27,001 nt of DNA from a virus. The notes below the pieces were generated by a model, which was not told where the DNA came from, searched no databases, and saw nothing but the letters and a program-made list of their open reading frames with translations. Both the position numbers and the translations under genes were made by a program. Positions 4,664 through 27,001 of the stretch are shown one piece after another (positions within the stretch are counted from its first letter, which is position 1; each line of letters starts with the position of its first letter). The stretch covers positions 1 through 27,001 of IMG/VR virus record IMGVR_UViG_3300032299_001609; one strand, 5' to 3'.

Positions 4664-4671
4664 CATAAATA
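4664..4671 (+). promoter_or_regulatory. T4-late-type promoter box CATAAATA
   Basis: CATAAATA followed by the 5-nt spacer ATAGT and the ATG at 4677. It matches the T4 late consensus TATAAATA except at the first base; a variable first base is the form reported for cyanophages. The same 16-base string recurs at 6166-6181. Confidence 0.75.
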
Positions 4672-4676
4672 ATAGT

Positions 4677-4922
4677 ATGAGCTTAAAAATTACTTTGAAT
4701 AACCCAATCACTATTGTCAAGCAACCTCTTATAGAAGAGACTATATCAGAGATAACAATAGATCGTATTGTGGATTTACCAAATGAGAAGAAGGTCTTTG
4801 TTTTTGTTAAAGGTGAAAGAATAGAATTAGAGCAACTCTCCGGAGACAATTACGATACTCCTAATGAGTGGACTAACGAAGATGTAGTTTCTGCTGTTAA
4901 AGCATATTACGGAATTAACTAA
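4677..4922 (+). CDS. Small conserved-looking unknown protein (81 aa)
   Basis: I do not recognise a family. The 81 residues are soluble, with beta-strand-like patterns in the first 55 residues (for example KKVFVFVKGERIELEQL) and an acidic, probably helical end (NEWTNEDVVSAVKAYYGIN). There is no signal peptide or membrane segment. The ATG is fixed by the late box 5 nt upstream. The gene has its own promoter and is closed by a strong hairpin terminator 22 nt after its stop, so it is a single-gene late unit, probably made in quantity. A small virion or assembly protein is the likeliest role, but that is inference from context. Confidence 0.7.
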   Translation: MSLKITLNNPITIVKQPLIEETISEITIDRIVDLPNEKKVFVFVKGERIELEQLSGDNYDTPNEWTNEDVVSAVKAYYGIN

Positions 4923-4943
4923 TATTTTTTTTATTAAAACATT

Positions 4944-4968
4944 AAAAAGCGCCCCCTAGGCGCTTTTT
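4944..4968. terminator. Bidirectional rho-independent terminator
   Basis: A 10-bp stem: AAAAAGCGCC (4944-4953) pairs with GGCGCTTTTT (4959-4968) around a 5-nt loop, with further T residues to 4970. The A-tract on the left serves as a T-tract for the minus strand. It lies between the convergent 81-aa gene (plus) and the neck gene (minus) and should end both transcripts. Confidence 0.9.
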
Positions 4969-4972
4969 TTTA

Positions 4973-5749
4973 TTAATAGTAGCTACCGTATATATCTGTA
5001 TCGTTAACAGACATATCCAAAACCTGCGTTTTAGATAAATTATCAACATCAAATAGATATGATTTACCCTCTGATGCACTAACACCGGGTATATTTGCTG
5101 ATATAACACCTGAGAAAGAATTTTCGTATATTTGCTGATTTTGTTTCTCACCAGATAATCCAGGTTCGAATGAATGCTCATATCTCTTAGCTCTTACTCT
5201 ATAAACATAATGTCCTAGGAGCGGGTTGAGTTGCGCTACGTCTTGATCAACCCGTTCAGTTATTTCAAACCATTTAGAACCTCTACCGTTAGGTCTATCG
5301 CAGCCTAGAGCTGTTAGTTCTATTATATCGCCTGATTTAGGCTCTATTACTTGATTAAACTGAGCGTAGTTTACAAGACTACTCATAGTATCAGTAAATG
5401 TTTGTATGTGTAGATAGCCGGTTAACTCATCATCAGAGGCAAATCCAAATTTAGATAAATTTATAGCATTTTCAGATAGTTCTATATACATTTGTAGCTC
5501 ATACGGTCCTAAGAATCTTCTTGTTGGATCCTCACCATATAGTAAATCAGCTGTTGAAAGATTAAATGTGTTAACATAATAGTTAACTGGTATACCGTAA
5601 CTATTAATTAAATCACCAAAAGAAGATTCATAAATAAGCTGCTCTGCTTGAAAATTGCCAGGATTAAAGAACTGACTGCAACCAGGACTAGCAACTGCAG
5701 CAAATACACCTTCAGGAGCGCACTGCGATCTGTTATTATTGCAGGACAT
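4973..5749 (-). CDS. 14: gp14-like neck (head completion) protein
   Basis: A 258-residue protein whose pattern fits the T4 gp14 neck protein family (T4 gp14 is about 256 aa). In order it shows YGIPVNYYVNTF, DLLYGEDPTRRF, a long strand region ending NLSKFGFASDDELTGYLHI, then EPKSGDIIELTALGCDRPNG, KWFEITERVDQD, and NPLLGHYVYRVRAKRYEHSF. The last three elements mirror the conserved (R)P-x-E/S-G-D, F-E-I/V-x and Y-Q/N-x-L-G-x-x-Y-V-Y-x-x-x-x-x-x-x-Y blocks of gp14. It would cap the filled head and form the collar for tail joining. Its start lies 14 nt inside the end of the upstream 124-aa gene, so translation may be coupled. It is read on the minus strand, far from the terminase, unlike the T4 13-14-15-16-17 order. 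The match is by remembered pattern, not by alignment. Confidence 0.65.
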   Translation of the reverse strand: MSCNNNRSQCAPEGVFAAVASPGCSQFFNPGNFQAEQLIYESSFGDLINSYGIPVNYYVNTFNLSTADLLYGEDPTRRFLGPYELQMYIELSENAINLSKFGFASDDELTGYLHIQTFTDTMSSLVNYAQFNQVIEPKSGDIIELTALGCDRPNGRGSKWFEITERVDQDVAQLNPLLGHYVYRVRAKRYEHSFEPGLSGEKQNQQIYENSFSGVISANIPGVSASEGKSYLFDVDNLSKTQVLDMSVNDTDIYGSYY

Positions 5750-6110
5750 TATTTTTCTTTCTATTTCTTAAAATTCCTCTCTGTAAACCTTCTCCATCTT
5801 CGTACATTTCTACTTCTACATCAGAATTTCCTAGTGTTTTAATACCAGGTTCAAAATTAACACCGTAAAGAGCTAAGACGGATAGTAGAGGCTGTCCCAT
5901 CATTTGTACATTATTAGTCTTTCCTCGACAAATATTATCTATAATAGGGTGTTTATGTTGATATTCTTGCTTAAAAGAGTTATCTTTTTCTCTACCTAGG
6001 GGATTTCCTAGTAGTTTGCCATTGTTACCAGCTCTAAGTTTTGATATACCAAAAAACCGACTGTTCTGCTTAGTAGCATACTCAATCAGATACTTTTTAA
6101 AAGTTACCAT
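5736..6110 (-). CDS. Unknown protein preceding the neck gene (124 aa)
   Basis: Not recognised. The 124 residues are basic in the first half (MVTFKKYLIEYATKQNSRFF) and carry a conserved-looking core, GQPLLSVLALYGVNFEPG, followed by an acidic stretch (VEVEMYEDGEG) and a basic tail (RGILRNRKKNN). There is no membrane segment. The ATG sits 5 nt from a late-type box TATAAGTA, which supports this start. Its end overlaps the neck gene by 14 nt in another frame, so the two form one minus-strand unit ending at the hairpin near 4956. In T4 the gene before 14 is 13 (another neck protein, about 309 aa); this protein is much shorter and I cannot claim homology. A head-tail joining role is a context guess. 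Confidence 0.6.
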   Translation of the reverse strand: MVTFKKYLIEYATKQNSRFFGISKLRAGNNGKLLGNPLGREKDNSFKQEYQHKHPIIDNICRGKTNNVQMMGQPLLSVLALYGVNFEPGIKTLGNSDVEVEMYEDGEGLQRGILRNRKKNNVLQ

Positions 6111-6115
6111 ATAAT

Positions 6116-6123
6116 TACTTATA
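6116..6123 (-). promoter_or_regulatory. Late-type promoter box TATAAGTA (minus strand)
   Basis: On the minus strand TATAAGTA is followed by 5 nt (ATTAT) and the ATG at 6110. It differs by one base from TATAAATA. It shares a 68-bp divergent gap with the CATAAATA box at 6166-6173. The fixed spacing is what supports it. Confidence 0.55.
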
Positions 6124-6165
6124 CAAAAAGGAGCGTTATTTTAATAGTTTTTTTTTGCTTTCTTG

Positions 6166-6173
6166 CATAAATA
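6166..6173 (+). promoter_or_regulatory. T4-late-type promoter box CATAAATA
   Basis: CATAAATA, spacer ATAGT (5 nt), then ATG at 6179. It heads the longest plus-strand unit (6179-18734). It also decides the start: the in-frame TTG at 6155 lies upstream of the box and is unlikely to be used. Confidence 0.75.
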
Positions 6174-6178
6174 ATAGT

Positions 6179-8743
6179 ATGCCTAATATTAGAATCTCGC
6201 AACTAGATACAGCTGCACAAATTCGAGGTACAGACTATTTAGTTGTTGATAATACCAGTACAACAAAACGCGCAACCTTTGATGCACTTTTTAGTTCAGA
6301 TGTTGCTAAGGAATTTAAAGGTAGTTCTATAACATTAGCTGACTATGGTGTTCGTAGTAACGACATACAAATAAAAGGTAATTTAGTTACCTCTCCTGGT
6401 AAGGGAATCGCTATTTATACTGCTGTTTATGTTAACAGTGTAGCAGGGAGACTGGTAGGTCAGACCGTAATAGGTAATATATCTAATAAAACAGGGACTA
6501 TTAAGAGTATAGATAGTTTAAATAAAATTCTCTATATAAAAGAAGATAGCGGTACAGTAAATGTTGACTTTCAAGTAGGAGAATTTTTTGGTAGTACTAA
6601 AATAACCAGAGTAGAGGATTTTAAGAAGACCTTACTAGCTAATCAAACTCTTAAAATATTTTATGCTACAGGTAACAATGGAAGTAATACCGTAGCAGCT
6701 AATGTAGATTTTCCACCTACAGTATTTCCGGTTGTTAATTCTAGTAATTTATACTCTCCAAAGTTAAAGTATACATATGATATAGCTCAGTTTAGATACG
6801 ATAACGGAAAAATTAGTAATACTACCTCGCAGCCGGTTACATGTAATAATATATATCCAGAGTTGTTAGATGACGGTAACTATAATAGATTAACTTTTAG
6901 ACGAACATCAACACAATACGGTGTTTTAGTTTACAGACAGTTAGGCACTGAGCCTATGAAGCTCATATCGGTTTTAGGTCAGAGAGAGTTGGGTTCATCT
7001 ACTACAGGTCTAACATACGATGATTTAGGTGGATTTTCAACATCACCGTGGGCAGAAGAATTTAAAAGTGAAGTTAATGGAAATATTAATTCTATATACT
7101 ATTTCCCTATATCAGCGAGTCAGATAAGCGGTAATTCCAACTACAAAGAGTTAGGTGGTTTTACAGCAGGTAGAATTGCTTCTATATCAGGAAGGAACAC
7201 AGTTAACTTAGATGCAAACATCTATAGTAATACCTCTAATATATTAGATATCTTTATAGATAGCGCTACCTTTAGCGATAATCAAGATAATATCGTAGGG
7301 GGATTTAATAAAGTAGCAGAAGATTTTGAAAATGGTGTAATTAGTAAGATAGGTCTACCACCCGGAACATATTATACATCTTCAATAACAATACCGTCAA
7401 ATTTCAATATTGAAGGTGACTCTAAAGGGTCAAGTATTATTAAATCTATTCCTTGGAACTTTAGCGACACTAAAGGTAATTGCATTTTTTACTGCACAGA
7501 CGCTAATAAAGTAACTATCAAAAATTTAACCGTAGATGGAAACTACAATAACAATACCGGTAACGCGTTGTTTAAAAATAACTTCCTAATAAACGGCGAG
7601 AACACTAAGTATTTAACCTTAGAGAATTTAAATGTTCAGAATAGTGTTGGTGGCGGTGTATATGCACCAAAATCAACAAACTTAAGATTGATCGGTAACG
7701 ATATAAATAGCGGTTCAATAGAGCTTAAGAGGGAAGAGAGCTATACAGGAGTATACGCACCTGAGTCTCAAGAATTTATTTTTAACTCTAATAATATTGA
7801 AGGCTGGGTAGGACCAGTAGATATATCAGTTTCGAGAATAGGTTCTGCTTCTAACAATATTATTAAGAATTGCGGTTCTGGGTTACTAGTTTATGGTTCA
7901 ACTAGTTTGACAGTATCTCCAAACATCATAGTCGGTCAAGATAATGAACAGCTTCCTATCGTAGATGTACATGATGATAATTTTGATTCCATCAATGTTA
8001 CACTAGAAGAAAGTGATATATATACTTCGGATATTATTTCTTATCTGAGAGACGGGCTGCCAGCATGGTTGAGCTCAACAGATAAGATACAAAATTTAAT
8101 ACCTGTACCAGGTACAGGAGTTTCTCTAAAAACACAAATTAAGGTTCTTGTTAAGCTTAACAATCAAGAATACCTACTTCCATCTAGCGTGTTAGATTTT
8201 AGTACCTATAATGGCTCTACCCCTACTATTTCGATTGTATCTTCTAATGAAGATCTCAAGGATGGGCTAGTTCAATTTAAACTTACATCAGCTGCGGTTA
8301 ATTCTTTACCTAACTACGGTGAACTATTAGATATTTATCAATACTTAGCTAGACCTACAGGCGAGCAATTAATAGGCTTAGTATATAAGATAATTGCTAA
8401 TGAGTACTTGTTTGTAGAGGGTGACGATAAAATATATCTAGATAGTTACAGATTTACCGATAGTACAACTCTAGAATTTACAGTAGATGATGCTTCGGCT
8501 CCATTAGTATCTGCGCTATCCGTAAATGATATTTTATATCCTATTAACGTAGCAACTGGAAGTACATTGTTTAATAAAACAGAGCTTAGAGTCAAAGAGA
8601 TAACAGGAACTCTCTCACCAGTTGTAAAGTGTCAATTCACGGGTTCCGTTACAGACCCACCAAATACCAGTATAGTGACGACAGGCTATATTGGTGTTAA
8701 AAATAACTTTGTCGTTTCAAAAGGTAGAATCAATAAATCATGA
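6179..8743 (+). CDS. Virion structural protein with parallel beta-helix region (tail-spike/fibre-like)
   Basis: 854 residues from the ATG at 6179. The N-terminus MPNIRISQLDTAAQIRGTDY is the short Q-L-x-x-A-x-x-x-x-G-T-D style often seen where phage fibres anchor to the virion. Residues of about 400-590 look like a right-handed parallel beta-helix of the pectate-lyase type: PPGTYYTSSITIPSNFNIEG, then regularly spaced hydrophobic short strands with N/G turns (VTIKNLTVDGNYNN, YLTLENLNVQNS, LRLIGNDI, FIFNSNNIEG, NNIIKNCGSGLLVYGS). No catalytic site can be assigned, so depolymerase activity is only possible. The remaining C-terminal ~270 residues are mixed beta and unrecognised. Its stop overlaps the next ATG (ATGA), so it is co-translated with the 1102-residue structural protein. 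Confidence 0.7.
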   Translation: MPNIRISQLDTAAQIRGTDYLVVDNTSTTKRATFDALFSSDVAKEFKGSSITLADYGVRSNDIQIKGNLVTSPGKGIAIYTAVYVNSVAGRLVGQTVIGNISNKTGTIKSIDSLNKILYIKEDSGTVNVDFQVGEFFGSTKITRVEDFKKTLLANQTLKIFYATGNNGSNTVAANVDFPPTVFPVVNSSNLYSPKLKYTYDIAQFRYDNGKISNTTSQPVTCNNIYPELLDDGNYNRLTFRRTSTQYGVLVYRQLGTEPMKLISVLGQRELGSSTTGLTYDDLGGFSTSPWAEEFKSEVNGNINSIYYFPISASQISGNSNYKELGGFTAGRIASISGRNTVNLDANIYSNTSNILDIFIDSATFSDNQDNIVGGFNKVAEDFENGVISKIGLPPGTYYTSSITIPSNFNIEGDSKGSSIIKSIPWNFSDTKGNCIFYCTDANKVTIKNLTVDGNYNNNTGNALFKNNFLINGENTKYLTLENLNVQNSVGGGVYAPKSTNLRLIGNDINSGSIELKREESYTGVYAPESQEFIFNSNNIEGWVGPVDISVSRIGSASNNIIKNCGSGLLVYGSTSLTVSPNIIVGQDNEQLPIVDVHDDNFDSINVTLEESDIYTSDIISYLRDGLPAWLSSTDKIQNLIPVPGTGVSLKTQIKVLVKLNNQEYLLPSSVLDFSTYNGSTPTISIVSSNEDLKDGLVQFKLTSAAVNSLPNYGELLDIYQYLARPTGEQLIGLVYKIIANEYLFVEGDDKIYLDSYRFTDSTTLEFTVDDASAPLVSALSVNDILYPINVATGSTLFNKTELRVKEITGTLSPVVKCQFTGSVTDPPNTSIVTTGYIGVKNNFVVSKGRINKS

Positions 8744-12048: not shown

Positions 12049-12058
12049 ATTATAATAT

Positions 12059-16126: not shown

Positions 16127-16127
16127 T

Positions 16128-18734
16128 ATGGGAGCTTTTCAAACACCAGTAATATACGGATTAGCATTAGGAAATAATTTATCAGATTTACCTGATAAAG
16201 ACAATGCTTTGAGGAGTTTAGGGTTAGAACCAACAGACCTAGCTAGTATTGGTAATATAAACGAATACATAGGACGTGACGGGTTTCAAATTATTAGTAA
16301 CCTTGACGAGCCAATACAACGTAAGTTATCTAGGTACAATACAGATATAATTAAACATCCGGAGATTTTAAATACTGGAATTGATCTTAAAAACATTAAT
16401 AGTAATGTTACTTTAAATGGTGCTATGGGGTCTTCTACTATTAGGTATTATTCTTTAGACTCTTACGATTCAACTAGAGATTTATTTACTCCAATAGATA
16501 TTTCGACAAGTAGAGCATCATCCTGGTCGGGATTTGGTGAAAATTTAAATTATGGAGCTGAGTTAAGAATTACTAATGGTGGTAGATTGAGTGCAGGTAC
16601 CTTAAAGTTTAATACCTCTTCAGAACCTAAAGTATTTGAAAGTTCAGAGATAGCAACCCATACAATAAAAACTAACATAAACGGTAAAGAATATGTTTTG
16701 TTTGCTATGAAAGACATTCCTTTAGTTTTTAACGGCAACTTTAGAACGTATGATGTAAGAGTAGGAGTATCTAATACAAGCGTACGTGTGAGTAGCAGAA
16801 TATATCTTACAGATAGTAAGAATGAAATGAGATTATTTCGTGATCTCAACTGGTCTGGTAGTGAAGCAACTATAGCTGGTGTAACTCCTAACTTGAGACC
16901 TAGAACTATTGAAATTTATTGCGATCCTAGAGTTCTTACTACACTGAATATAAACAGACTTGGATTATCTGATCTACCAGCAACACGTTTAACCTCATTA
17001 AGATCTCTTAATATATCTAGAAATTATTATACAGAGCTACCAAATATATCTGGATTTGCGCCTCAGCTTACATTTTTAGATATATCTAATAATGACCTAC
17101 ACAAATCTAACGATTTAAACTTACAAGCATTTACAGAAAAGTTCGTACAAAGGTTACCTCGTGTTAGTACTCTGGTTGCTGGTAATACGGTTAACGGTCA
17201 AATACAGACAATTATAGAAAATGGAGAGCCTATATCAGTTATTGAAAAATATTTACCTCTTACACAATTAAATCTAAGGAGAGATACCGGGTCATTCTTT
17301 TCAGGTATAACGCCTTCTGTTTCTTCTAGCTGTGTTATTTATAACATTCAAAACAACAATTTTACTGAGTTTCCAGTGAGAGGATTGTTTAGAAACTTTG
17401 CAGATAATAAAATATCACAATTTTTAATAAGTGGTAATAGAGATCTTTGTCTAACTCCACAGACTAGCGCTGCTTATTTAAATGGAGATAATTACTCTAA
17501 TGCTCTAGAGATATTTAATGCAGATGTTACGTTCGTACCTGTTCCTAATTTAACAGGTAAGCAAAACCTTAGAGAGGTACTTTTTAATTCTGCTGCGAGA
17601 AATTATGTATGGGGAGTAAATCAACACCCACTTGAAGCTATAAACTCAGAGTTCTCTTTAATTACCAAAGAAGGTGGTTATAAGTTTGCGAACTGTGACA
17701 ATCTCGAGAGATTGGTGTTTAGTTATACTGTGTTAGTAGGTAGAGTGCCTATAATAACAAACCCGAAACTAAAACAACTAGATTTAGGTTATTGTAATCT
17801 ATCTGCCGCAGTTAAACCAGCGGGTGTAACAGAAGATTACTCATTTTACGAGGGTACATTTGATGGCTGTAGAAACACTCTCGAGGTCTTCGGGTTATGG
17901 AATGTATTATCTGATAATCAGCGGTCAAATCCAGGTAATGATTATTTTACAAGACCTTTACAACCAGGTACGTTCGATAACTTTCCGCAACTTATTTATT
18001 TCCACTACGTAACATACAGAACTACAGGTGATACACCAAACTTTACAGGATGCTCTAAACTGAGAGATCTTCTAATGCATGTTAATGCATTTACAGGCAT
18101 TTCTACTATTTCTAGAGACTGTAAAAATACTCTCGAGACCGTTTATTTTCCATATAATCAAATAAATCAAGGAGAGGCTACCAGAACTATAGGAGACGTT
18201 TCAGGTATCCTAAGCTTAAGTAAACTATTTGATGGAGAGGCTCCTTTTACTAGAGTAATAAATATTGACTTTGAGTCTAATCAGCTTAACGGATTAGTGG
18301 ATATAGATAAAGTACCTAATTTACGAACCTTAAACCTTTCTAAAAATAGTATGGTTGGAGCTATACCAGACTTTTCCAATACACCTAATCTACAAACTCT
18401 TTTACTTAATAACAATAGATTTTCACTCTTTACACCAGGAGCTTTTAATAGATTAACCAAAGTAAAAAATATTAATCTTCTCAATAATGTAGAGAACGGT
18501 GTCAATACACTACCACTGTCGCAAATAGAATTAATTATCGATAGCCTATACTTAATGTTTAATAACTTCTCTAGAAGAAATAATAGAAATGTTACTGTTT
18601 ACTTAGCTTCTGATAGCAACCCTTTTATCATAACATCGAGTCTTACAATAGATCAAATAACATTTATGGAGAAGTCTGGTAATTATAAGTTTTTCGGATT
18701 GGTAAAACAAGCGGCTGGTGGAGGCACAGCATAA
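16128..18734 (+). CDS. Leucine-rich-repeat tail-fibre-like protein
   Basis: 868 residues. The N-terminus holds GNNLSDLPDKDNALRSLGL (about residues 15-33), the N-L-S-D-L-x-D-x-x-x-A-x-x-x-L-G-L motif widely found in phage tail fibres, which argues that the protein is virion-attached. Residues of about 270-330 and 545-790 carry leucine-rich repeats: LRSLNISRNYYTELPNISGF, LTFLDISNNDL, LKQLDLGYCNLS, LRTLNLSKNSMVGAIPDF, LQTLLLNNNRF. The repeats are irregular in length (roughly 20-30 residues) with the usual L-x-x-L-x-(I/L)-x-x-N core. Residues 30-270 form a beta-rich domain of unknown type. A curved LRR surface would suit receptor binding, and this is a candidate host-recognition protein. It begins 1 nt after its neighbour's stop. 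LRR proteins are not usual T4-type fibres, so the domain call matters and can be tested by profile search. Confidence 0.8.
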   Translation: MGAFQTPVIYGLALGNNLSDLPDKDNALRSLGLEPTDLASIGNINEYIGRDGFQIISNLDEPIQRKLSRYNTDIIKHPEILNTGIDLKNINSNVTLNGAMGSSTIRYYSLDSYDSTRDLFTPIDISTSRASSWSGFGENLNYGAELRITNGGRLSAGTLKFNTSSEPKVFESSEIATHTIKTNINGKEYVLFAMKDIPLVFNGNFRTYDVRVGVSNTSVRVSSRIYLTDSKNEMRLFRDLNWSGSEATIAGVTPNLRPRTIEIYCDPRVLTTLNINRLGLSDLPATRLTSLRSLNISRNYYTELPNISGFAPQLTFLDISNNDLHKSNDLNLQAFTEKFVQRLPRVSTLVAGNTVNGQIQTIIENGEPISVIEKYLPLTQLNLRRDTGSFFSGITPSVSSSCVIYNIQNNNFTEFPVRGLFRNFADNKISQFLISGNRDLCLTPQTSAAYLNGDNYSNALEIFNADVTFVPVPNLTGKQNLREVLFNSAARNYVWGVNQHPLEAINSEFSLITKEGGYKFANCDNLERLVFSYTVLVGRVPIITNPKLKQLDLGYCNLSAAVKPAGVTEDYSFYEGTFDGCRNTLEVFGLWNVLSDNQRSNPGNDYFTRPLQPGTFDNFPQLIYFHYVTYRTTGDTPNFTGCSKLRDLLMHVNAFTGISTISRDCKNTLETVYFPYNQINQGEATRTIGDVSGILSLSKLFDGEAPFTRVINIDFESNQLNGLVDIDKVPNLRTLNLSKNSMVGAIPDFSNTPNLQTLLLNNNRFSLFTPGAFNRLTKVKNINLLNNVENGVNTLPLSQIELIIDSLYLMFNNFSRRNNRNVTVYLASDSNPFIITSSLTIDQITFMEKSGNYKFFGLVKQAAGGGTA

Positions 18735-18737
18735 ATA
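18730..18737 (+). promoter_or_regulatory. T4-late-type promoter box CATAAATA
   Basis: CATAAATA followed by 6 nt (TTATTT) and the ATG at 18744; the only clear box here with 6 rather than 5 nt. It overlaps the last codon and stop of the leucine-rich-repeat gene. Confidence 0.65.
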
Positions 18738-18743
18738 TTATTT

Positions 18744-20060
18744 ATGAGCAGACGAGGGTTAGAATTATTAAAAGATTTATCTGAGGTAAGGGACGCAGTA
18801 ACGTCTTTAGATAATTTATGTATAGGGGCAGCTGAACCATTTAGTAGTGATGACTTTAAGGTTTTCACTTCCAATAAAAGAAATGTTTCAATTTTTACCT
18901 TTATACCTAATAATTTTAGTTTGCAGTTAAGTAGTTTTGGCGGTACAAGTGGTAGTTATAGGTTAGAGATTCCCAAATCGCAGGATGTTGATTTAGAACT
19001 AGTTAATTTAAATATTTATGTAGGAGATATCATAGCAGGATATGGTATTCAACCTAGTACTAAAATAGAAAGAGTTGATGTTTATGGTAATGAAAACAAT
19101 AGTTTAGGATTACCGGTTACTGAGCTGGTTCTAAGTAAACAACTAACAGCGATCATATTAGATAATACACAATATACTCTTATTAAACAAAACAGCGCTA
19201 CAATAACTGGAAACCGGTTCGTTTTAGGTCAAGATGTTACAAATAACTTTTATAACGGAGATAAGATCACAGCTATTTACTACCCACTTTCAACATCTAC
19301 TACCCCTATACTAAGCACTAACACTGTTGATCTTTATATAGTAGATAATAGTTTTAACTCCAGCAACCAATTCTGTTTTGGGTTATCTTTAAATGAGGGT
19401 GGTGAAAAAATTAATTTATCATCTGTTAATTCACTGTGCGCTATTGATTTTTTGAGATCTAACGAAGTCACTAAGAGAGATTTTAGAAATATTTTCTTAC
19501 CAGAAGCAGTAGATTATTTTGATGCTGATCCTAATTCTGGAGATGGTATTAGTTATGATGCAAGTAGAAGGTTTTACAGTCTTATAAGCTACGACACAGT
19601 AGATGAAGCTTTAACAGAATTAGAACAACAAGTAGACTTTACATCGAATGTTTTAAACGAAAAAATTGATACAACAAAAGATAATATTAATAGCAAAGGT
19701 ATTAATATTGAAGGTGTTTTAAGAGTAGCAGATCCAGGTGTTTTGAATAATGGGTCTATAAGTACGGATAATAGAGCTCCTTCTCTCTATATTTTAGATC
19801 CTACATCTACTAGTTTAACCGGAGTTAGAATATTTTCTACCTTCGATTCACCGTGGGTATCAACAACTAATTCTCTAAGCACTAATAAGAACATTAACGT
19901 CGGTAGTCTAGCATTCGAAAAAAATATATTCTTAGAAAACGCTACAGTTCAAACTATAACACCTACTACAATTACGTTTACACGTAAAATACCTGTATCA
20001 ATAGTAGGTAATGATGGATTTACCACCACCTACTATTTGTTAGCTAGCTCGCAAAATTAA
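18744..20060 (+). CDS. Virion structural/fibre protein (438 aa)
   Basis: Not matched to a named family. The N-terminus LLKDLSEVRDAVTSLDNLCI resembles the fibre-anchoring D-L-S-x-x-x-D-x-x-x-x-L-x-N-L motif of the LRR neighbour. The middle is beta-rich. A short segment around residues 285-325 (VDEALTELEQQVDFTSNVLN, then EKIDTTKDN) is likely a coiled coil or trimerisation helix, followed by a small beta-rich tip. The late box ends 6 nt before the ATG, so it probably has its own transcript. Its stop codon directly abuts the stop of the convergent 1156-residue gene. A short fibre or a connector for the neighbouring adhesins is the best guess. Confidence 0.65.
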   Translation: MSRRGLELLKDLSEVRDAVTSLDNLCIGAAEPFSSDDFKVFTSNKRNVSIFTFIPNNFSLQLSSFGGTSGSYRLEIPKSQDVDLELVNLNIYVGDIIAGYGIQPSTKIERVDVYGNENNSLGLPVTELVLSKQLTAIILDNTQYTLIKQNSATITGNRFVLGQDVTNNFYNGDKITAIYYPLSTSTTPILSTNTVDLYIVDNSFNSSNQFCFGLSLNEGGEKINLSSVNSLCAIDFLRSNEVTKRDFRNIFLPEAVDYFDADPNSGDGISYDASRRFYSLISYDTVDEALTELEQQVDFTSNVLNEKIDTTKDNINSKGINIEGVLRVADPGVLNNGSISTDNRAPSLYILDPTSTSLTGVRIFSTFDSPWVSTTNSLSTNKNINVGSLAFEKNIFLENATVQTITPTTITFTRKIPVSIVGNDGFTTTYYLLASSQN

Positions 20061-23000
20061 TTATATTGCTATTGAATAGACCCTGACGACTCCCTGTTCT
20101 GGTGAACCACTGTCAGTGGTAAATGGTGAACCTAGCAATACTCTGTTACCGGTATTATTAATAGATACGCTATACCCGGTACCATCTCCTACGGTAGGTA
20201 CAATGTCACCTTCTATCGAATTTGATAGCTGGTCCCATGATTGAGTTAGTGAGTTGTATATATATATTTTCACTTGACCTTTTTCTGTAGTAGTCGCAGC
20301 ACCTACAACTATACTATCTCCAGTGCTATTAATTGAAACACTATCACCGAATTGATTAGAACTAGCTCCAGTACCGATTATATCTTGACCATATTGAACC
20401 CAAGAATTTAATATCGAGCTATATTTATATACTCTAACAATACCAGGATCAGGACTATTTGCAAATGCATTAGGAGCACCTATTACTATAATATCACCAG
20501 CAGAATTGAGAGCAATACTGTTTCCGAACAAATAACCTGGAAATGGCCCGTCTATTGAATTAGCTATACGAGACCAAGTACCTGGCGATCCACCATTATG
20601 TTGAAACACACGTACTCTACCATAAAGATTATTATCAACTTTATAAAGAGAAGTTGCAGCTAAGATATCACCTGCTGTATTCATAGCTACACTATAACCA
20701 CACTCGTCATTAGCACTCTCACCTACAATATCATTACCTAATTGAGACCAGGAAACGCCACTATTAGTAGTAGCGTATGCCCGCACTCTACCTATGTTAG
20801 TATTAGGGGTTATATCTACTCCAGGAGCACCTACCGCTATTCTTGAGCCTGCACCATTTATACATACACTCCAACCAAATTTATTTGAAGTATCAAAAGT
20901 CGTACCTCCAGCTACAGCAGTCGTATCATTTATTACTGTTAGAGTTGAATAACTCGTTCCGTTGTTAGTACTTGATCTAACTGTTACACCACCATGACCT
21001 ACAATAGTCGAAGCAGCTCCTGCAAGATTATACCTACCGGGAGCTCCTACTACAGATACTAGCCCCGTATCATTAAGCTTTACACTAAAGCCTCTCTGAG
21101 CGTTTGTATTAACATCAACTACCGTATCAACGGTAGTCCACGACGACCCTACACGCTTGTAGACTTCTACTCTACCGACATCAGAATAGTTAATAGAACT
21201 AATAGTCTCATCATCTTTTGGTGCGCCAATTATTAAATATTCATCACCTGTACCAGCATTACCGTTTATAGCAGTGCTCCACCCAAATCTGTTAGACCCA
21301 ACAGGACCGGTGATTGTAGGTGTAACCTGTACCCAGGGTGGTATTGTAGTTGTAGTAGTGGTTGTAGTGGTTGAGTTAACATTACCTGTAGAAGCTATTA
21401 AGAAAAGCGTTAAATCATTAATATCCTTCACGGTAAGTAATGCGTTAATGTTAGAAGTAGTTCCATTAGGTATGGCATTAGTATTAGTGACTGTATCACT
21501 ATCTATAAAGGTGAATCTGTTAAATGTTGCAGTTCTATTTTCAATATCGACCCCAGACATAGCGGGTGTTGCTAAACCTTGTGTTGTACCTATAAAAGGC
21601 GTGACTGTTTCACCTGGAGGAAAGCACTCATAGCGAGGAGTATTGCCGGGTGGTCTGCTAGGGGTTGAAAGACTTATGTTTAATGCAGTACCAGACTTTA
21701 TAGCCTGCGTTAAGTTTTTAGATAGTGTAATTGTATTTAGTAGGGATGAAGCATTAGTTATACCAGTATTATTAGGAATTGCAGCATCGTAATTCACCTG
21801 GTATGCGCTAATTGCAGCGTTAATTGTGGCTAGATATGATATAGATACCCTGTTGCTTTCATAATCAAATATACTATTAGGATCTATAGTTAATATATTA
21901 GTACCAGCATTTGAAGTAGCTGTGGTTTTCGCGGTAACTAACTGTAGTACGTTTCCTCCTGTACAATAACCATCTAGGGAGATATTATCAATACCCCCTC
22001 TATAATAAAAAACGAGAGGCTGGTTGGTAGTTAGTGTATTTAGGAACGGACGAGTTACAATTATACTACCATCAGAAGAGATCGCTGAGACAGATGTAAA
22101 GCCACCCACTGTAAGACTATTGTGTAAAACAACATCTCTGGGTTTATAGGGATCACCTTTGTATTTAGTAACTCCTTTAAATACAGATAGTGAGGTGTTA
22201 GTGCTAATGTTATAATCCTGCGTATAGCCCTTAAGTCCCTTATGCTTAACGAAATATAAAGTCTCAGCTAATATAGACGCCGGGCTATCCTTAGTTAAAA
22301 ATACAGAACTCTCATTTATAATTTCTTGTACGTATGTAAAAGAAGAAAGAGTTTTAGAACCGTCTAACACCAGGTTACCAACCTGTATATTACTGGTATC
22401 ATTTATACCAGTAATATAATTCCTATTAGCAGCTAGATTGCCAGTTTTAGCTATAACAGTAGTACTATATAGTTTTGGCGGAGTGTAGTTAATAGTTAAA
22501 GCACCTGTAGTAAGCATTGCTTTATAAGAAGCAGGTTCTCCTCCACCTATAGAAAACTGCTCAACGTTATTTTTATAGCTATGAAAATTAGTGCCCATGA
22601 TAGGTAATTTATTATCATAAAAATTACCTAATCTACCCTTTAAATTATTTAAATAATCTTCATCGTACAGAAAATCGTAGTAAAAAACTCCATTGGAATT
22701 GAATATCACAGGTTGTTCGAAAGAAATTTCTGATTGATGCTTTAAATCTCTCTTTACAGTTTCTGGACTTCTAAGAAAATAAATCTTAATGTTATAAAAT
22801 TTAAATTTTTCAAGAGGTAGTGTTGTTCTAGTAAGACCTTGTCGTTCATCAAAATTAGGTTGGTAATATATAGGAGAGGACAGCATAGACTGCCCATTTT
22901 CATTAGTTAATTCAATTATTACACCACCATTTGATCCGCTTGTTATTCTAAACGTATGCACTCCAGATTGATATGGCTTTAAAAATCCAGTAAATGTCTG

Positions 23001-23531
23001 TATACCTTCTATTTTATTAATATTTTGAGACATTAATGTTGTCTTAAAACTAATGCTGCCTCTACCCCAAAAAATATCTGTATCAACAGGTAAAGGACCG
23101 TCCATAAAAACACTACTATCAAACTCTACTGGTAGGCTAGTAATAGAAGGATAAACACTACCCCATTCATAAGTTCTTCTAGTTAATCCATTACCACCTT
23201 GAAATCTTGGCTCACCTATTATTAAATTTAAAGAATCGAATCTATTTTTAAGGGTAGATACTGGTCTTATTATTTCCGAATTCTCGTTTAATTTTACAAT
23301 GTTTAGTAATTTTACTAACTGAGAGTCTAAAGATATAAATTGTTGGTTTCCGAGAATAGTGTCAGTGTCCGACTGTTCAATTTGTGATATATTTTCAAGA
23401 AAATCTAAATCCTCCTTTAAATATACAGCTCCACTTGCTAGCGTTGTTAATAAATTATTTAAAGCTATTGTCGGATTGATTATATCACCAAAGTTTTTAT
23501 CACGAAGTAATCCTTGTGTCTGTATACCCAT
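20061..23531 (-). CDS. Adhesin-like virion protein with PA14-like region and seven-bladed FG-GAP propeller
   Basis: 1156 residues on the minus strand. The N-terminus (GLLRDKNFGDIINPTIALNN) again resembles a fibre-anchoring segment. Residues of about 170-240 (TFTGFLKPYQSGVHTFRITS, then SNGGVIIELTNENG) fit a PA14/GLEYA-type carbohydrate-binding beta fold. A run of nine Thr ending in IPPW (about residues 718-731) forms a linker. Residues of about 745-1156 contain seven successive units of roughly 50-60 residues, each with F-G-x-S-V/I-x-x-N-x-x-G-D-x-x-x-x-G-A-P and then G-x-V-x-V-Y: a complete FG-GAP, integrin-alpha-like propeller. The start is set by a CCTAAATA box 5 nt upstream. The product is probably a surface-displayed receptor- or glycan-binding fibre. 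Its orientation is opposite to the main fibre run. Confidence 0.75.
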   Translation of the reverse strand: MGIQTQGLLRDKNFGDIINPTIALNNLLTTLASGAVYLKEDLDFLENISQIEQSDTDTILGNQQFISLDSQLVKLLNIVKLNENSEIIRPVSTLKNRFDSLNLIIGEPRFQGGNGLTRRTYEWGSVYPSITSLPVEFDSSVFMDGPLPVDTDIFWGRGSISFKTTLMSQNINKIEGIQTFTGFLKPYQSGVHTFRITSGSNGGVIIELTNENGQSMLSSPIYYQPNFDERQGLTRTTLPLEKFKFYNIKIYFLRSPETVKRDLKHQSEISFEQPVIFNSNGVFYYDFLYDEDYLNNLKGRLGNFYDNKLPIMGTNFHSYKNNVEQFSIGGGEPASYKAMLTTGALTINYTPPKLYSTTVIAKTGNLAANRNYITGINDTSNIQVGNLVLDGSKTLSSFTYVQEIINESSVFLTKDSPASILAETLYFVKHKGLKGYTQDYNISTNTSLSVFKGVTKYKGDPYKPRDVVLHNSLTVGGFTSVSAISSDGSIIVTRPFLNTLTTNQPLVFYYRGGIDNISLDGYCTGGNVLQLVTAKTTATSNAGTNILTIDPNSIFDYESNRVSISYLATINAAISAYQVNYDAAIPNNTGITNASSLLNTITLSKNLTQAIKSGTALNISLSTPSRPPGNTPRYECFPPGETVTPFIGTTQGLATPAMSGVDIENRTATFNRFTFIDSDTVTNTNAIPNGTTSNINALLTVKDINDLTLFLIASTGNVNSTTTTTTTTTIPPWVQVTPTITGPVGSNRFGWSTAINGNAGTGDEYLIIGAPKDDETISSINYSDVGRVEVYKRVGSSWTTVDTVVDVNTNAQRGFSVKLNDTGLVSVVGAPGRYNLAGAASTIVGHGGVTVRSSTNNGTSYSTLTVINDTTAVAGGTTFDTSNKFGWSVCINGAGSRIAVGAPGVDITPNTNIGRVRAYATTNSGVSWSQLGNDIVGESANDECGYSVAMNTAGDILAATSLYKVDNNLYGRVRVFQHNGGSPGTWSRIANSIDGPFPGYLFGNSIALNSAGDIIVIGAPNAFANSPDPGIVRVYKYSSILNSWVQYGQDIIGTGASSNQFGDSVSINSTGDSIVVGAATTTEKGQVKIYIYNSLTQSWDQLSNSIEGDIVPTVGDGTGYSVSINNTGNRVLLGSPFTTDSGSPEQGVVRVYSIAI

Positions 23532-23536
23532 GTATA

Positions 23537-23544
23537 TATTTAGG
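23537..23544 (-). promoter_or_regulatory. Late-type promoter box CCTAAATA (minus strand)
   Basis: On the minus strand CCTAAATA is followed by 5 nt (TATAC) and the ATG at 23531. One base differs from CATAAATA. It lies downstream of the hairpin terminator at 23580-23608, consistent with a fresh start for the propeller gene. Confidence 0.55.
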
Positions 23545-23579
23545 TTTGCTCTCTCTCTTTAATATATTTTTACATAAAA

Positions 23580-23608
23580 AACCCGGTAGCCTCAAGAGCT
23601 ACCGGGTT
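23580..23608 (-). terminator. Rho-independent terminator of the acidic-protein gene
   Basis: A perfect 11-bp stem (23580-23590 with 23598-23608, AACCCGGTAGC and its complement) with a 7-nt loop. Read on the minus strand it is followed by a run of six T residues, and it lies 18 nt after the stop of the 335-residue gene. It separates that unit from the propeller gene. Confidence 0.9.
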
Positions 23609-23626
23609 AAAGTTATAATTTAAGAA

Positions 23627-24184
23627 TTATTGTTCGAACATTGATTTGCCTGTCTTAAGCGAACCAACCTTATTGCTCTTACCCATGTTAGGCTGCTTAG
23701 CATTTACAAGAGCGTGACCATGATCGCCATCTGAACCTACTTTATCAGTATAAGCTGATGTAGCACCGCCTGATTGTGTTTTGAGATTACCAACTTTGTT
23801 GTTTTTACCGTAGTTAACTTCCTTAGTGAAATTATCTGCTCCAAGATCTTCTTCGTCTTCGTCCCAGAAACCTTCTTCTGCTTCTTCTGGCTTATCTTCT
23901 TCCATATCACCTTCTAACTCAGTGTCGCCTTCTTCGTCACCAAAGCCGCCCTCTTCTTCACCGCCGATAGCAGCTTGAAGAACGTCAATAAGCTTTTGAG
24001 CAGTTTCGCGATCAAGTGTGAAAGTAACTTCTTCACCAGTTTCTTCCATTCCTTCACTTTCACCCTCGATACCAAGAGCGTCGAGCTCATTAGCATCTTC
24101 CATTTCAGAACCCATAGGATTGCCTCCGTCTGGCTGACCCATTACGTTTTCATACAGTTTATCAAAGATTGATTTCTTTCTCAT
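23627..24184 (-). CDS. Nested C-terminal product (185 aa) of the acidic gene, from an internal late promoter
   Basis: The internal ATG at 24184 is codon 151 of the 335-residue frame and has CATAAATA exactly 5 nt upstream (spacer ATTTT), the same unit that precedes six other late genes in this window. The product would begin MRKKSIFDKLYENVMGQPDG, which reads like a natural N-terminus, and would contain the conserved-looking helix, the acidic run and the duplicated tail motif, without the Lys/Ala-rich N-terminal half. Either this is an in-frame nested gene or the long gene is a fusion of two older genes that kept the second promoter. Expression is not shown by the sequence. Confidence 0.45.
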   Translation of the reverse strand: MRKKSIFDKLYENVMGQPDGGNPMGSEMEDANELDALGIEGESEGMEETGEEVTFTLDRETAQKLIDVLQAAIGGEEEGGFGDEEGDTELEGDMEEDKPEEAEEGFWDEDEEDLGADNFTKEVNYGKNNKVGNLKTQSGGATSAYTDKVGSDGDHGHALVNAKQPNMGKSNKVGSLKTGKSMFEQ

Positions 24185-24634
24185 AAAATTATTTATGCTA
24201 GCCTTAGCAATTTTTCTACTTTCTTTTATAGTTTCTTCATCTTCTTCACCTTTATAAGTGCCTGCTTTCTTAGCTTTAGCAGCTCCTGCAATTTTTGACG
24301 CGGCTTTTTCACCGTATCCAGCTTTTTTAGCTTCTTTTTTAACTTTAGTAAACATTCCTTTTTTAGGCTTTTCAGTCTCTTCATCTTCTTCTAAGTTTTC
24401 GGGTTGAGATAGATTTTTGATATTATAAAGATTATCTTTAAGTTCTTTATCTGACATCTTCTTTCTATCTATTTTAGAAGGCACATAACCCGCTGTTTCC
24501 TGAGGTCCACCCTTTAAAAGTGGAACTTCTCCTATTTCACCAGTTTTACCTTCATATACTAGTTTATGTTTTATGCTATTTAACATTCCTCCATAAACTT
24601 GCCCAATACTTGCGAAGTCGTTTTGTTTTGACAT
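23627..24634 (-). CDS. Acidic low-complexity late protein (possible prohead core/scaffold)
   Basis: 335 residues, not assignable to a named family. In order: an N-terminal segment (MSKQNDFASIGQVYGGMLNS), a charged linker, a Lys/Ala-rich helical stretch at about 93-128 (KKEAKKAGYGEKAASKIAGA), an internal Met at 151 (MRKKSIFDKLYENVMGQ), one ordered-looking helix (VTFTLDRETAQKLIDVLQAA, near 203-222), a very acidic run at about 223-263, and a tail with two copies of G-K-x-N-K-V-G-x-L-K-T (near 276 and 317). There are no Cys and no membrane segments. Late promoter and terminator flank it as a single-gene unit, divergent from the terminase by 17 bp. Acidic, helical, disordered proteins near packaging genes are often head scaffold or core components; that role is inference. 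A late box inside the gene predicts a shorter second product. Confidence 0.7.
   Translation of the reverse strand: MSKQNDFASIGQVYGGMLNSIKHKLVYEGKTGEIGEVPLLKGGPQETAGYVPSKIDRKKMSDKELKDNLYNIKNLSQPENLEEDEETEKPKKGMFTKVKKEAKKAGYGEKAASKIAGAAKAKKAGTYKGEEDEETIKESRKIAKASINNFMRKKSIFDKLYENVMGQPDGGNPMGSEMEDANELDALGIEGESEGMEETGEEVTFTLDRETAQKLIDVLQAAIGGEEEGGFGDEEGDTELEGDMEEDKPEEAEEGFWDEDEEDLGADNFTKEVNYGKNNKVGNLKTQSGGATSAYTDKVGSDGDHGHALVNAKQPNMGKSNKVGSLKTGKSMFEQ
24190..24197 (-). promoter_or_regulatory. Internal late-type promoter box CATAAATA (minus strand)
   Basis: It lies inside the 335-residue gene, encoding part of A-S-I-N-N-F. Five nt (ATTTT) separate it from an in-frame ATG at 24184. Other ATAAATA strings inside genes that I checked by eye lack an ATG at this distance. 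Confidence 0.5.
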
Positions 24635-24639
24635 ATATA

Positions 24640-24647
24640 TATTTATA
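24640..24647 (-). promoter_or_regulatory. T4 late promoter box TATAAATA (minus strand)
   Basis: A perfect T4 late consensus on the minus strand, with 5 nt (TATAT) before the ATG at 24634. It lies in the 17-bp gap between the acidic gene and the terminase. No equally good box faces the terminase. Confidence 0.75.
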
Positions 24648-24651
24648 GAAT

Positions 24652-26355
24652 ATGTCTAAAAAATCCGACAAAACTGAGTTTTATTTAGGAAATCCTAATC
24701 TTCCAGCAGCTGGTGCAGTAATAGCTTACGAGCCATGGATGGTAAAAGAGCTTCAAAAAGCTAAAGATAATATATTATATTTTGCAGAAAATTTCTTTTA
24801 TATTATTAACCTAGATAGAGGTAGAGAAAAAATTAAGATGCATCCCTGCCAAAAGCGTGCTATTAGGAAAATGAGAGACAATAGATTCTTTATTCTTCTA
24901 GCATCTAGACAGATCGGCAAGTCTACCATGATGACCATCTACATTTTATGGCAAGCTTGTTTCTTGGATGATCAAAGAATTCTTCTAGTAGCTAACAAAG
25001 AAGCAACAGCTATTGAAATCTTCCAAAGAGTACGGCTAGCGTTCGAAGAGCTTCCAGTATGGTTAAAGCCTGGTGTTAAGGAGTATGGTAAGACTTCAAT
25101 GACACTAGATAATGGTAGTAGAATAGGTATTACAACTACAACCGGTACGGCTGCTCGTGGTCAATCCGTTAATTGCTTAGTAATTGATGAGATGGCCTTT
25201 ATCGAACCTCATTTAGTTGAAGAGTTTTGGAAATCAGTTTTTCCTATTATTACTTCATCTAAAAAATCTAAAGTGTTTGTTTGTTCTACTTCTAATGGTA
25301 CAGATAACTTATTTTATAAGTTATATGATGGCGCAGAAAAAGGAGAGAATGGATGGGCATATGATAAGATTAAATGGGATGAGGTACCAGGTAGAGATGA
25401 AAAATGGGCTGCTAACACTAGACAAGCTATTGGATCTATTGAAGCATGGCTTCAGGAATTTGAATGTCAATTCTTATCTTCAGGTGAATCGTCTATTGAT
25501 GAAGCTCTTTTCGCAGAAATGTCTCAGCAGTGTACCGAGCCTAAGATACTACTAGATGAAGGAAACTATAGAATATGGGAGGAACCAGACTCTTCTAGAG
25601 TGTATGTTGCAGGAGTTGATATATCTGAAGGGGTGGGTGTAGATGCATCTGTTATTCAAATTTTAGATATAACTGATTTGAGAGATATTAAGCAGGTTGC
25701 TACTTATCATAATAGACATATACCACCTTTAGAGTTTGCTAATAAAGTACACACCATACTTAAGAACTGGGGATCACCTTTAGCCTTAATAGAGAGAAAT
25801 AATTGCGGAGCGCAGGTAGTTGATAGATTAGCGTTTGATATGGGATATGAGAAGGTAGTATCCTATGGCGCTAAAGTAGCTAATAGAGCAAAACCTCAAA
25901 TGGGTATGATAGCTCATACTAATACCAAATATAAAGGTGTAATGAACATGAGGTATTTTATAAATGAAATGCGATCTGTTACTATAAGAGACATAGATAC
26001 ACTAAAAGAATTAAAAGACTTTGTAAGATATCCTAACGGTACTTGGAAGGCAAAAGGAGGGTATCATGATGATAGAGTAATGTCTTTAATGTATAGCTTG
26101 TTTATATTAGAAAAAGAATTAACTGAAAGATACTTTGAGATAGTAGAGTTAGATGATCATGGAAAACCTAGCTTTATAGAACCTATGGACTTTGGAGTAG
26201 CTATGTTTGAAGATCCTACCTCTATATATAGTGATTTTGAAGTAGTCGGACTAAATAATACATACATAACTCCTATAGTATTTGGTATGGGTGAGTCCAG
26301 TCAAAATGCTGAAATAGACTTTCTTATGCAGGAGGGATGGGTTCCTTATTCATAA
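24652..26355 (+). CDS. 17: Terminase large subunit (gp17-like)
   Basis: 567 residues, in the usual range for the gp17 family (T4 610 aa). The ATPase domain has a Walker A-type loop SRQIGKST (residues 85-92), a Walker B VIDEM with D179 and E180, and a coupling motif STSNG (residues 212-216). The RNase H-like nuclease domain shows its three acidic positions: D323 in AGVDISEG, E381 in ALIERNN, and D473/D474 in YHDDRV. The product should bind the prohead portal, translocate DNA with ATP and cut concatemers. The start is 17 bp from the divergent acidic gene, and the next gene starts 1 nt after its stop, so the tube gene is co-expressed. A small terminase subunit is not visible in the window. The start context has no Shine-Dalgarno and no clear plus-strand late box. 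Confidence 0.95.
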   Translation: MSKKSDKTEFYLGNPNLPAAGAVIAYEPWMVKELQKAKDNILYFAENFFYIINLDRGREKIKMHPCQKRAIRKMRDNRFFILLASRQIGKSTMMTIYILWQACFLDDQRILLVANKEATAIEIFQRVRLAFEELPVWLKPGVKEYGKTSMTLDNGSRIGITTTTGTAARGQSVNCLVIDEMAFIEPHLVEEFWKSVFPIITSSKKSKVFVCSTSNGTDNLFYKLYDGAEKGENGWAYDKIKWDEVPGRDEKWAANTRQAIGSIEAWLQEFECQFLSSGESSIDEALFAEMSQQCTEPKILLDEGNYRIWEEPDSSRVYVAGVDISEGVGVDASVIQILDITDLRDIKQVATYHNRHIPPLEFANKVHTILKNWGSPLALIERNNCGAQVVDRLAFDMGYEKVVSYGAKVANRAKPQMGMIAHTNTKYKGVMNMRYFINEMRSVTIRDIDTLKELKDFVRYPNGTWKAKGGYHDDRVMSLMYSLFILEKELTERYFEIVELDDHGKPSFIEPMDFGVAMFEDPTSIYSDFEVVGLNNTYITPIVFGMGESSQNAEIDFLMQEGWVPYS

Positions 26356-26356
26356 T

Positions 26357-26926
26357 ATGAGCGCTTATAAACAGTCAGTTTTAAATAAATCGAGAGTTGA
26401 TAAGTTTCGGCTTGTGTTTCAATTACCTAATGCTCTTAAAAAGATAAACAAATCGTCAGAACGTCAAAACTCCACTGTATATCAGGATTCTATGCAGTTT
26501 TCAATATATGGTACGGTAGTACCTGGTATTACAGTACCGGCTCTTGAGATTAGATACGCTGGTAACACACTTTACAACTCAACTCACAGTAAAAATTCAT
26601 ACCCACCAGTAACTGTAAATTTCACTATAGATAATGAATATAACAACTATTGGGTTATATATAAGTGGATAAACTTACTACACGATCAAAAATCCGGTAC
26701 TTTTGATAAAGACGAGCTTATACAAGACGATGTATTTAAAGATTACCAGACAGATTTAACGATATACGGTTTAGATGAGTTTAATAAAGAAAAAATAGCA
26801 TTTAATTATACAAAAGCCTTCCCCACAGACCTGGGAGGTATAAGTTTTAATTACAGAGAAAGTAACGAAATTGAATCTTCATTTACTTTTGTGTATTCTC
26901 AGCTACATACTACCCTTTTAGGGTAA
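26357..26926 (+). CDS. Tail tube family protein (gp19/gp54-like)
   Basis: 189 residues (T4 gp19 is 163 aa). The C-terminal half carries the tube-family signature: AFPTDLGGISFNYRESNEIE followed by SSFTFVYSQLH, matching the P-T-x-x-G-x-I-x-x-x-x-x-S-N-E-I-x-x-F block of T4 gp19. Upstream are a VPGITVPALEIRYAGNTL strand pair and a helical YNNYWVIYKWINLLHDQ segment, also in family order. It would be the main tube subunit or a related baseplate-tube initiator such as gp54; the sequence alone does not separate these. It lies between the terminase and the sheath gene, so tube precedes sheath, whereas in T4 sheath (18) precedes tube (19). It is co-transcribed with the terminase (1-nt gap). Confidence 0.75.
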   Translation: MSAYKQSVLNKSRVDKFRLVFQLPNALKKINKSSERQNSTVYQDSMQFSIYGTVVPGITVPALEIRYAGNTLYNSTHSKNSYPPVTVNFTIDNEYNNYWVIYKWINLLHDQKSGTFDKDELIQDDVFKDYQTDLTIYGLDEFNKEKIAFNYTKAFPTDLGGISFNYRESNEIESSFTFVYSQLHTTLLG

Positions 26927-26943
26927 AAATTACTTACAAAAGC

Positions 26944-26951
26944 CATAAATA
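26944..26951 (+). promoter_or_regulatory. T4-late-type promoter box CATAAATA
   Basis: CATAAATA, spacer ATTAC (5 nt), then ATG at 26957 of the sheath gene. It lies in a 30-bp gap after the tube gene. Confidence 0.75.
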
Positions 26952-26956
26952 ATTAC

Positions 26957-27001
26957 ATGGCTAAACGAACAATTAATTCTCCTGGTGTTGAGATTAGAGA
27001 A
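26957..27001 (+). CDS. 18: Tail sheath protein, 3' partial (first 15 codons)
   Basis: Only MAKRTINSPGVEIRE is inside the window. The S-P-G-V-E-I-R-E segment is the characteristic N-terminus of contractile tail sheath (gp18-like) proteins of marine T4-like phages; T4 gp18 itself begins with a similar L-S-P-G-I-E-L-K-E. It follows the tube gene after 30 bp and has its own late box, as expected for a very abundant protein. Confidence 0.8.
   Translation, partial: MAKRTINSPGVEIRE

Follow-up and report, generated by a model that had tools for sequence, protein, structure and literature searches.

Late transcription in phage T4, a textbook system, produces mRNAs that have leaders with ribosome-binding sites. 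The late promoters of T4 (TATAAATA, gp55/gp33/gp45) consist of a box without a -35 element, followed by an AT-rich spacer, and stand before virion genes. The box, the lack of a -35 element, the spacer and the place before virion genes are shared by the uncultured lineage described here, which also encodes a gp55 homologue. The two differ in the position of the start codon: most ATGs of T4 are found 12-31 nt beyond the box (49 matches), preceded by a Shine-Dalgarno motif, and 2 of 65 boxes are at 5 nt, whereas in the lineage the ATG falls at +1. Late promoters of the form NATAAATA have been described in the cyanophages S-PM2, Syn9 and relatives (PMC2984593). Leaderless mRNAs are known from Caulobacter, with 375 cases (PMC4117421), and from Mycobacterium (PMC4633059). 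There too the RNA runs from the start codon and has no Shine-Dalgarno motif, but these mRNAs come from host promoters and their 5' ends were measured, whereas the lineage would use a dedicated phage late promoter, as judged from sequence. The late promoters of phiKZ (TATG, with G as the start; PMC5312081) resemble those of the lineage in being minimal phage promoters that overlap an ATG-like word; they differ in belonging to another RNA polymerase and promoter and in starting at G, not A. In a literature search of partial coverage no description of leaderless late mRNAs from T4-like phages came up, and earlier publication is possible.

The window, that is the whole 27-kb stretch of DNA analysed, is by its PHROG matches a late-gene fragment from a T4-like myovirus lineage, with virion structural or fibre proteins encoded between 6179 and 18734 (Table 1). 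The gene cut by the window end is that of the tail sheath gp18, as its orthologue in the long contig G001, which begins at 5937, has a product matching gp18 of HTVC008M. Cultured phages are distant (best terminase match 38.6% identical), and close stretches in IMG/VR number in the hundreds. Four long contigs were read whole (G005, 171 kb; G008, 155 kb; G016, 122 kb; G001, 111 kb), and the wider set consisted of 80 related IMG/VR loci. The genomes of the lineage are AT-rich, with a coding density of 92-97%.

Table 1. Late boxes and genes of the 27-kb window
Feature	Position	Strand	Remarks
Late box CATAAATA-ATAGT-ATG	4664..4671	+	5 nt before ATG 4677; read directly
81-aa ORF, box-linked start	4677..4922	+	no function assigned
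Head closure Hc2	4973-5749	-	PHROG match; next gene after 5736..6110; no box
124-aa ORF, box-linked start	5736..6110	-	no function assigned
Variant late box TATAAGTA-ATTAT-ATG	6116..6123	-	one-base variant, 5 nt before ATG 6110
Late box CATAAATA-ATAGT-ATG	6166..6173	+	5 nt before ATG 6179
854-aa ORF, weak tail fibre family match	6179..8743	+	box-linked start
Late box CATAAATA-TTATTT-ATG	18730..18737	+	6 nt before ATG 18744
438-aa ORF, box-linked start (6 nt)	18744..20060	+	no function assigned
1156-aa ORF, box-linked start	20061..23531	-	no function assigned
Variant late box CCTAAATA-TATAC-ATG	23537..23544	-	one-base variant, 5 nt before ATG 23531
335-aa acidic ORF, two box-linked starts	23627..24634	-	no function assigned
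Internal late box CATAAATA-ATTTT-ATG	24182..24197	-	in frame within the 335-aa gene, 150 codons in
Late box TATAAATA-TATAT-ATG	24640..24647	-	5 nt before ATG 24634, in the 17 bp between this gene and the divergent terminase gene
Terminase large subunit gp17	24652..26355	+	PHROG match; no box in window
Tail tube gp19, terminase operon	26357..26926	+	PHROG match; no box in window
Late box CATAAATA-ATTAC-ATG	26944..26951	+	5 nt before ATG 26957
Tail sheath gp18 start, cut by window end	26957..27001	+	orthologue match

The original prediction placed a late box at a fixed short distance before seven gene starts. Direct reading of the sequence showed the box at all seven, six times at 5 nt and once, at 18744, at 6 nt, and each carries NATAAATA or a one-base variant of it. 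The window contains 6 copies of the pattern [ACT]TAAATA-N5-ATG versus 0.85 expected, and the highest of 200 simulations reached 5. The proposed count against shuffled controls gave the same answer: HTAAATA-N5-RTG was found 7 times versus 1.4, and 0 of 100 shuffles reached 7. Among the 679 ATGs of the window that are not gene starts a single one (24184, minus) has a box at 5 nt; at this rate the binomial chance that at least 6 of the 14 gene starts would have one is 3e-13. The association between box and gene start is real and far above chance. It had also been stated that genes inside operons lack the box. This was found for 3845, 5749 (minus), 8740, 12059, 16128 and 26357, all of which follow a same-strand gene, and the gene at 6179, which has a box, is the first in a four-gene same-strand run that ends at 18734. 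The exception is the terminase gene (24652), boxless within the window although it heads away from 24634 across a gap of 17 bp whose sole box serves the minus-strand gene. The terminase frame of G005 has a possible GTG start 5 nt after TTAAATA.

A peak in the distance between box and ATG was looked for in the window, in the 80 loci and in the four long contigs, and it was sharp at 5 nt, as had been anticipated, while sites at 6 nt formed a smaller class. ATAAATA in the 80 relatives (n=672) was followed by an ATG exactly 5 nt on in 298 cases and 6 nt on in 57, other distances being mostly represented about 10 times; because related contigs share ancestry, these and the other sequence counts are not independent events. 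Expressed as distinct gene starts, the 80 loci gave 213 at 5 nt, 60 at 6, 13 at 7, 19 at 23 and few elsewhere. Observed and simulated 5-nt counts in the four long contigs were 37/7.0, 20/4.5, 29/5.4 and 27/3.3. Of the 36 distinct orthologues of gp18, 35 carry the box exactly 5 nt before the start; in the listed ones the identity of the protein goes down to 43%. The same spacing was found in 24 of 25 distinct orthologues of the 24634 gene and in 4 of 4 of the 4677 gene; among the 10 distinct orthologues of the 6110 gene the box is intact and at 5 nt in 5, and at 6 nt in 3. The two controls, the operon-internal head-closure gene 5749 (minus) and gp17, had the box in 0 of 32 and 0 of 14 orthologues. 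The bases of the spacer and the flanks drift between orthologues while the spacing is constant. The spacing counts (298/672), the simulation and the orthologue counts are independent of the choice of gene starts; that choice favours box-linked starts in the figures given below for operon-internal genes (base composition; 23 of 236) and for Shine-Dalgarno motifs at box-linked starts (2 of 95), and in the box survey of G005.

As a predictor of gene starts the box proved good but incomplete, since the distance is 5 or 6 nt in about 65-74% of the genes whose last 50 nt contain a box. ATG, the only start codon noticed at first, is the commonest at 5 nt but not the sole one: the lineage uses 226 ATG, 46 GTG and 1 TTG at this distance. 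The use of GTG and the near absence of TTG fit a requirement for a purine at +1. In the relatives GTG starts stand 5 nt after a box at 72 distinct sites, for example at 18119 (plus) and 17001 (minus) of G005, the terminase frame of G005 among them, and automatic gene callers may misplace such starts.

The claim that the A of the ATG coincides with +1 of T4 numbering is arithmetically correct: the box begins at -13, and the five bases that follow it occupy -5 to -1. A pyrimidine before the start is usual at most bacterial transcription starts. The base at -1 was T or C in 212 of the 213 distinct 5-nt starts of the 80 loci (and in >98% of 5-nt sites), versus A in 41% and T in 45% of operon-internal genes. 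In sites with a more distant ATG, 7-9 nt (31/53) or 10-30 nt (32/60) away, the pyrimidine-purine (YR) step keeps to bases 5/6 past the box, where +1 lies in T4; at the flanking steps of these same sites YR occurs 10-18 times each. T4 likewise has a purine 6 nt after the box, and those of its boxes that are accompanied by a Shine-Dalgarno motif have R at position 6 in 79%. The signature thus goes with the box rather than with the start codon, and this speaks against a translation signal. Divergent ATGs in G005, G001 and G008 are 28-32 bp apart with back-to-back boxes between them (e.g. CATGTAATTATTTATGCTAGAGAATAAATATTTTTATG), which leaves no room for leaders. G occupies -14 in 43% of the box-linked starts of the lineage. 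These starts also have a GC preference directly after the ATG (+4/+5), which is, like the G at -14, an addition to the late box.

In the four long contigs 7-9% of the genes are preceded by a Shine-Dalgarno motif, versus 5-10% in a control stretch. The same comparison of genes with control gave 64 versus 9% in T4, 54 versus 13% in HTVC008M and 28 versus 8% in S-PM2. Among box-linked starts of the four contigs the motif was found in 2 of 95; with a broader motif set it was found in 24 of the 213 box-linked 5-nt starts of the 80 loci. The rate in the 80-locus set, 12% versus 7% in the control, is slightly above background, so that a small residue is possible. The mRNA just after the AUG was compared between box-linked and other genes and was no less structured, without difference between the two. 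A phage-encoded bS21 as the cause of unusual initiation was sought in ten records and was not found.

The spacing and its conservation, the signature of an initiator, the short gaps between divergent genes, the absence of Shine-Dalgarno motifs, the bias towards late genes and a gp55 homologue (see below), all seen in the sequence, together make it the best reading, and in our judgement a highly probable one, that the late promoters of this lineage are fused to start codons and that the late mRNAs are leaderless or have a leader of 0-1 nt. The boxes would be T4-type late promoters read by the host RNA polymerase with the phage gp55 sigma protein. To judge from the geometry and the initiator signature, the late mRNA that heads a transcription unit would begin at the start codon or one base earlier. 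A 5' end at the start codon requires leaderless initiation of the kind known from Caulobacter and Mycobacterium, which may proceed through recognition of the 5'-terminal AUG/GUG by the 70S ribosome or the initiator tRNA, and the downstream genes of the unit would also be translated without a Shine-Dalgarno motif. The absence of any leader, as originally proposed, is supported by the 5-nt peak, but it is not absolute: leaders of 0 or 1 nt are to be expected, and a minority would be longer. In the 6-nt class YR falls at 5/6 in 40 of 91 sites versus 34 and 33 at the flanking steps; this class lacks a clear initiator, and its transcripts may begin either at the A or with a leader of 1 nt.

The presence of this class and of a few 7-9-nt sites is what would be expected if the late promoter started transcription a few bases off, mostly giving leaders of 1-5 nt that are not strictly leaderless. 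The pyrimidine at -1 in nearly every 5-nt start and the constant place of the YR step relative to the box indicate the A itself, and we consider such short leaders unlikely as the general state.

The lineage has a homologue of the late sigma protein gp55, 145 aa long in G005 (phrog_234, E=1e-25) and present as well in G001 and G008; the window fragment itself is without one. The clamp loader gp44 was also found, and the sliding clamp gp45 was sought among ten candidate ORFs, none of which was recognised. The genes of G005 with a box include those for the tail sheath, portal and gp21, and those without are the genes for the polymerase, gp41, gp44, UvsX, gp46, gp47, gp55 and UvsW. A second promoter-like motif, RnGAACT-N4-TATAAT, occurs outside the window, mainly in G016 (L117, L118; many at ~68-84 kb) and also in G005 and G008. 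Of its 58 sites 11 have an ATG at 5 nt and 13 at 6 nt, with at most 4 at any other distance. If it is an early or middle promoter, its genes would be leaderless too. TATAAT at an equal distance from the ATG, and the likeness of ATAAATA to an AT-rich -10 element, would suit a box that serves as the -10 of promoters for the host sigma-70 or for another phage sigma protein, not gp55. However, -35 conservation is absent, since the lineage holds little information from -46 to -29 and a weak A/T preference at -26 to -28. Moreover, the box fits the T4 late consensus, it precedes virion and not replication genes in G005, and a gp55 homologue is encoded. This makes a sigma-70 type promoter distinctly improbable.

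The fixed distance to the start codon and the lack of Shine-Dalgarno motifs nearly everywhere could be accounted for by a box that acts in the mRNA as an AU-rich ribosome-binding signal and not as a promoter. At operon-internal genes, however, the box is mostly missing: it was found in 0 of 32 orthologues of the head-closure gene 5749 (minus) and in 23 of the 236 genes in the four contigs that start <10 nt after a same-strand gene. In addition, the pyrimidine-purine signature tracks the box and not the ATG, the box is the same as the late box of T4 and the cyanophages, the replication genes of G005 do without it, and the divergent genes would be left without room for any other promoter. A translation element is therefore very unlikely. 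Although the genomes are compact and AT-rich, compaction alone, with unrelated AT-rich words near starts arising from composition or from shared ancestry of a few sites, is hardly credible, since the peak stands at a single exact distance, simulations reach roughly a quarter of the counts at most, controls with the pattern reversed yield next to none, and the spacing is fixed where the bases around it vary.

The single box-linked ATG of the window that is not a gene start lies within the 24634 gene. Among distinct orthologue contexts carrying both box-linked starts, the internal box and ATG are kept in 40 of 40. In these 40 contexts the site opens with CTA, ATA or TTA, followed by AAT, by a further codon that is mostly AAT as well, and by TTT and ATG. 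Over the whole gene CTA accounts for 14% of the leucine codons and AAT for 61% of the asparagine codons, and a nearby leucine codon varies freely. Synonymous sites are thus fixed beyond what protein constraint alone would demand, and a promoter with a start codon inside the coding sequence is the simplest reading. The internal start would probably yield a nested C-terminal product of ~185 aa here and of ~160-210 residues across the orthologues.

The late motif of the cyanophages is that of the lineage and also stands before virion genes. Unlike in the lineage, the 5-nt peak is absent in S-PM2 (2/59) and in the Syn9 stretch, and part of the S-PM2 genes have a Shine-Dalgarno motif, as the rates given above show. 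Gene starts at 5 nt are missing from C48C1-like phages, whose counts rise broadly around 34. In HTVC008M (SAR11/Pelagibacter phage, Kyanoviridae) 9 of 45 ATAAATA have an ATG exactly 5 nt on, and 8 of those 9 ATGs are annotated gene starts. HTVC008M differs from the lineage in its frequent Shine-Dalgarno motifs and in that many other late boxes lie 12-31 nt upstream, which amounts to a mixed state. Its IMG/VR relatives have 20 distinct starts at 5 nt, of which 19 are directly preceded by T or C, and a Shine-Dalgarno-like motif precedes 2 of these 20 versus 60% of all their starts. The Rhizobium phage RHph_I1_18 has 5 of 29 boxes at 5 nt. From these comparisons of genomes the trait looks graded within the T4 superfamily and dominant in the lineage of the window.

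Relatives of the terminase were sought in bacterial genome contigs and none were found. A Bacteroidota host, an idea derived from the absent Shine-Dalgarno motifs, is disfavoured by the promoter words: the full TTTG/TAnnTTTG promoter motif showed no excess over the reversed control, and the words enriched instead were TATAAT and TTGATT. Several other features of the long contigs were noted. G005 has a one-piece tmRNA gene (L097 4252-4661, minus; Rfam RF00023, 133.7 bits), the predicted tag of which is unusually long, with 32 residues. At 143468-145525 (L096 3468-5525) this phage contig encodes a protein with CHASE2 and guanylate cyclase; the annotation of HTVC008M likewise includes an adenylate/guanylyl cyclase. 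A folE2-type GTP cyclohydrolase gene at 92597-93646 (minus) of G005 is perhaps connected with modified DNA bases or folate. In G016 an abiF RNA (L117 18338-18374, minus) matched Rfam above the gathering score.

A wider proposal is that the lineage has abandoned leaders and Shine-Dalgarno motifs altogether. In that case both the late promoters and those of the form RnGAACT-N4-TATAAT-N5/6-ATG would be fused to starts, nearly the whole transcriptome would be leaderless, and infection would need a host ribosome, or one altered by the phage, that starts on a 5'-terminal AUG/GUG. We put this forward tentatively, as a possibility falling a little short of an even chance.

In a T4-like lineage that recurs in many metagenome samples, late promoter and start codon appears to be the outcome of a merger into one element. 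If this is true, promoter, transcription start and gene start share a single 15-base signal (box-N5-ATG/GTG), which would help to correct gene starts in many metagenomic contigs. The mixed state of HTVC008M, together with its cultured host, makes the step from led to leaderless mRNAs testable in the laboratory. Leaderless translation, usually seen as a side route, would then be the main route for the virion proteins of this lineage.
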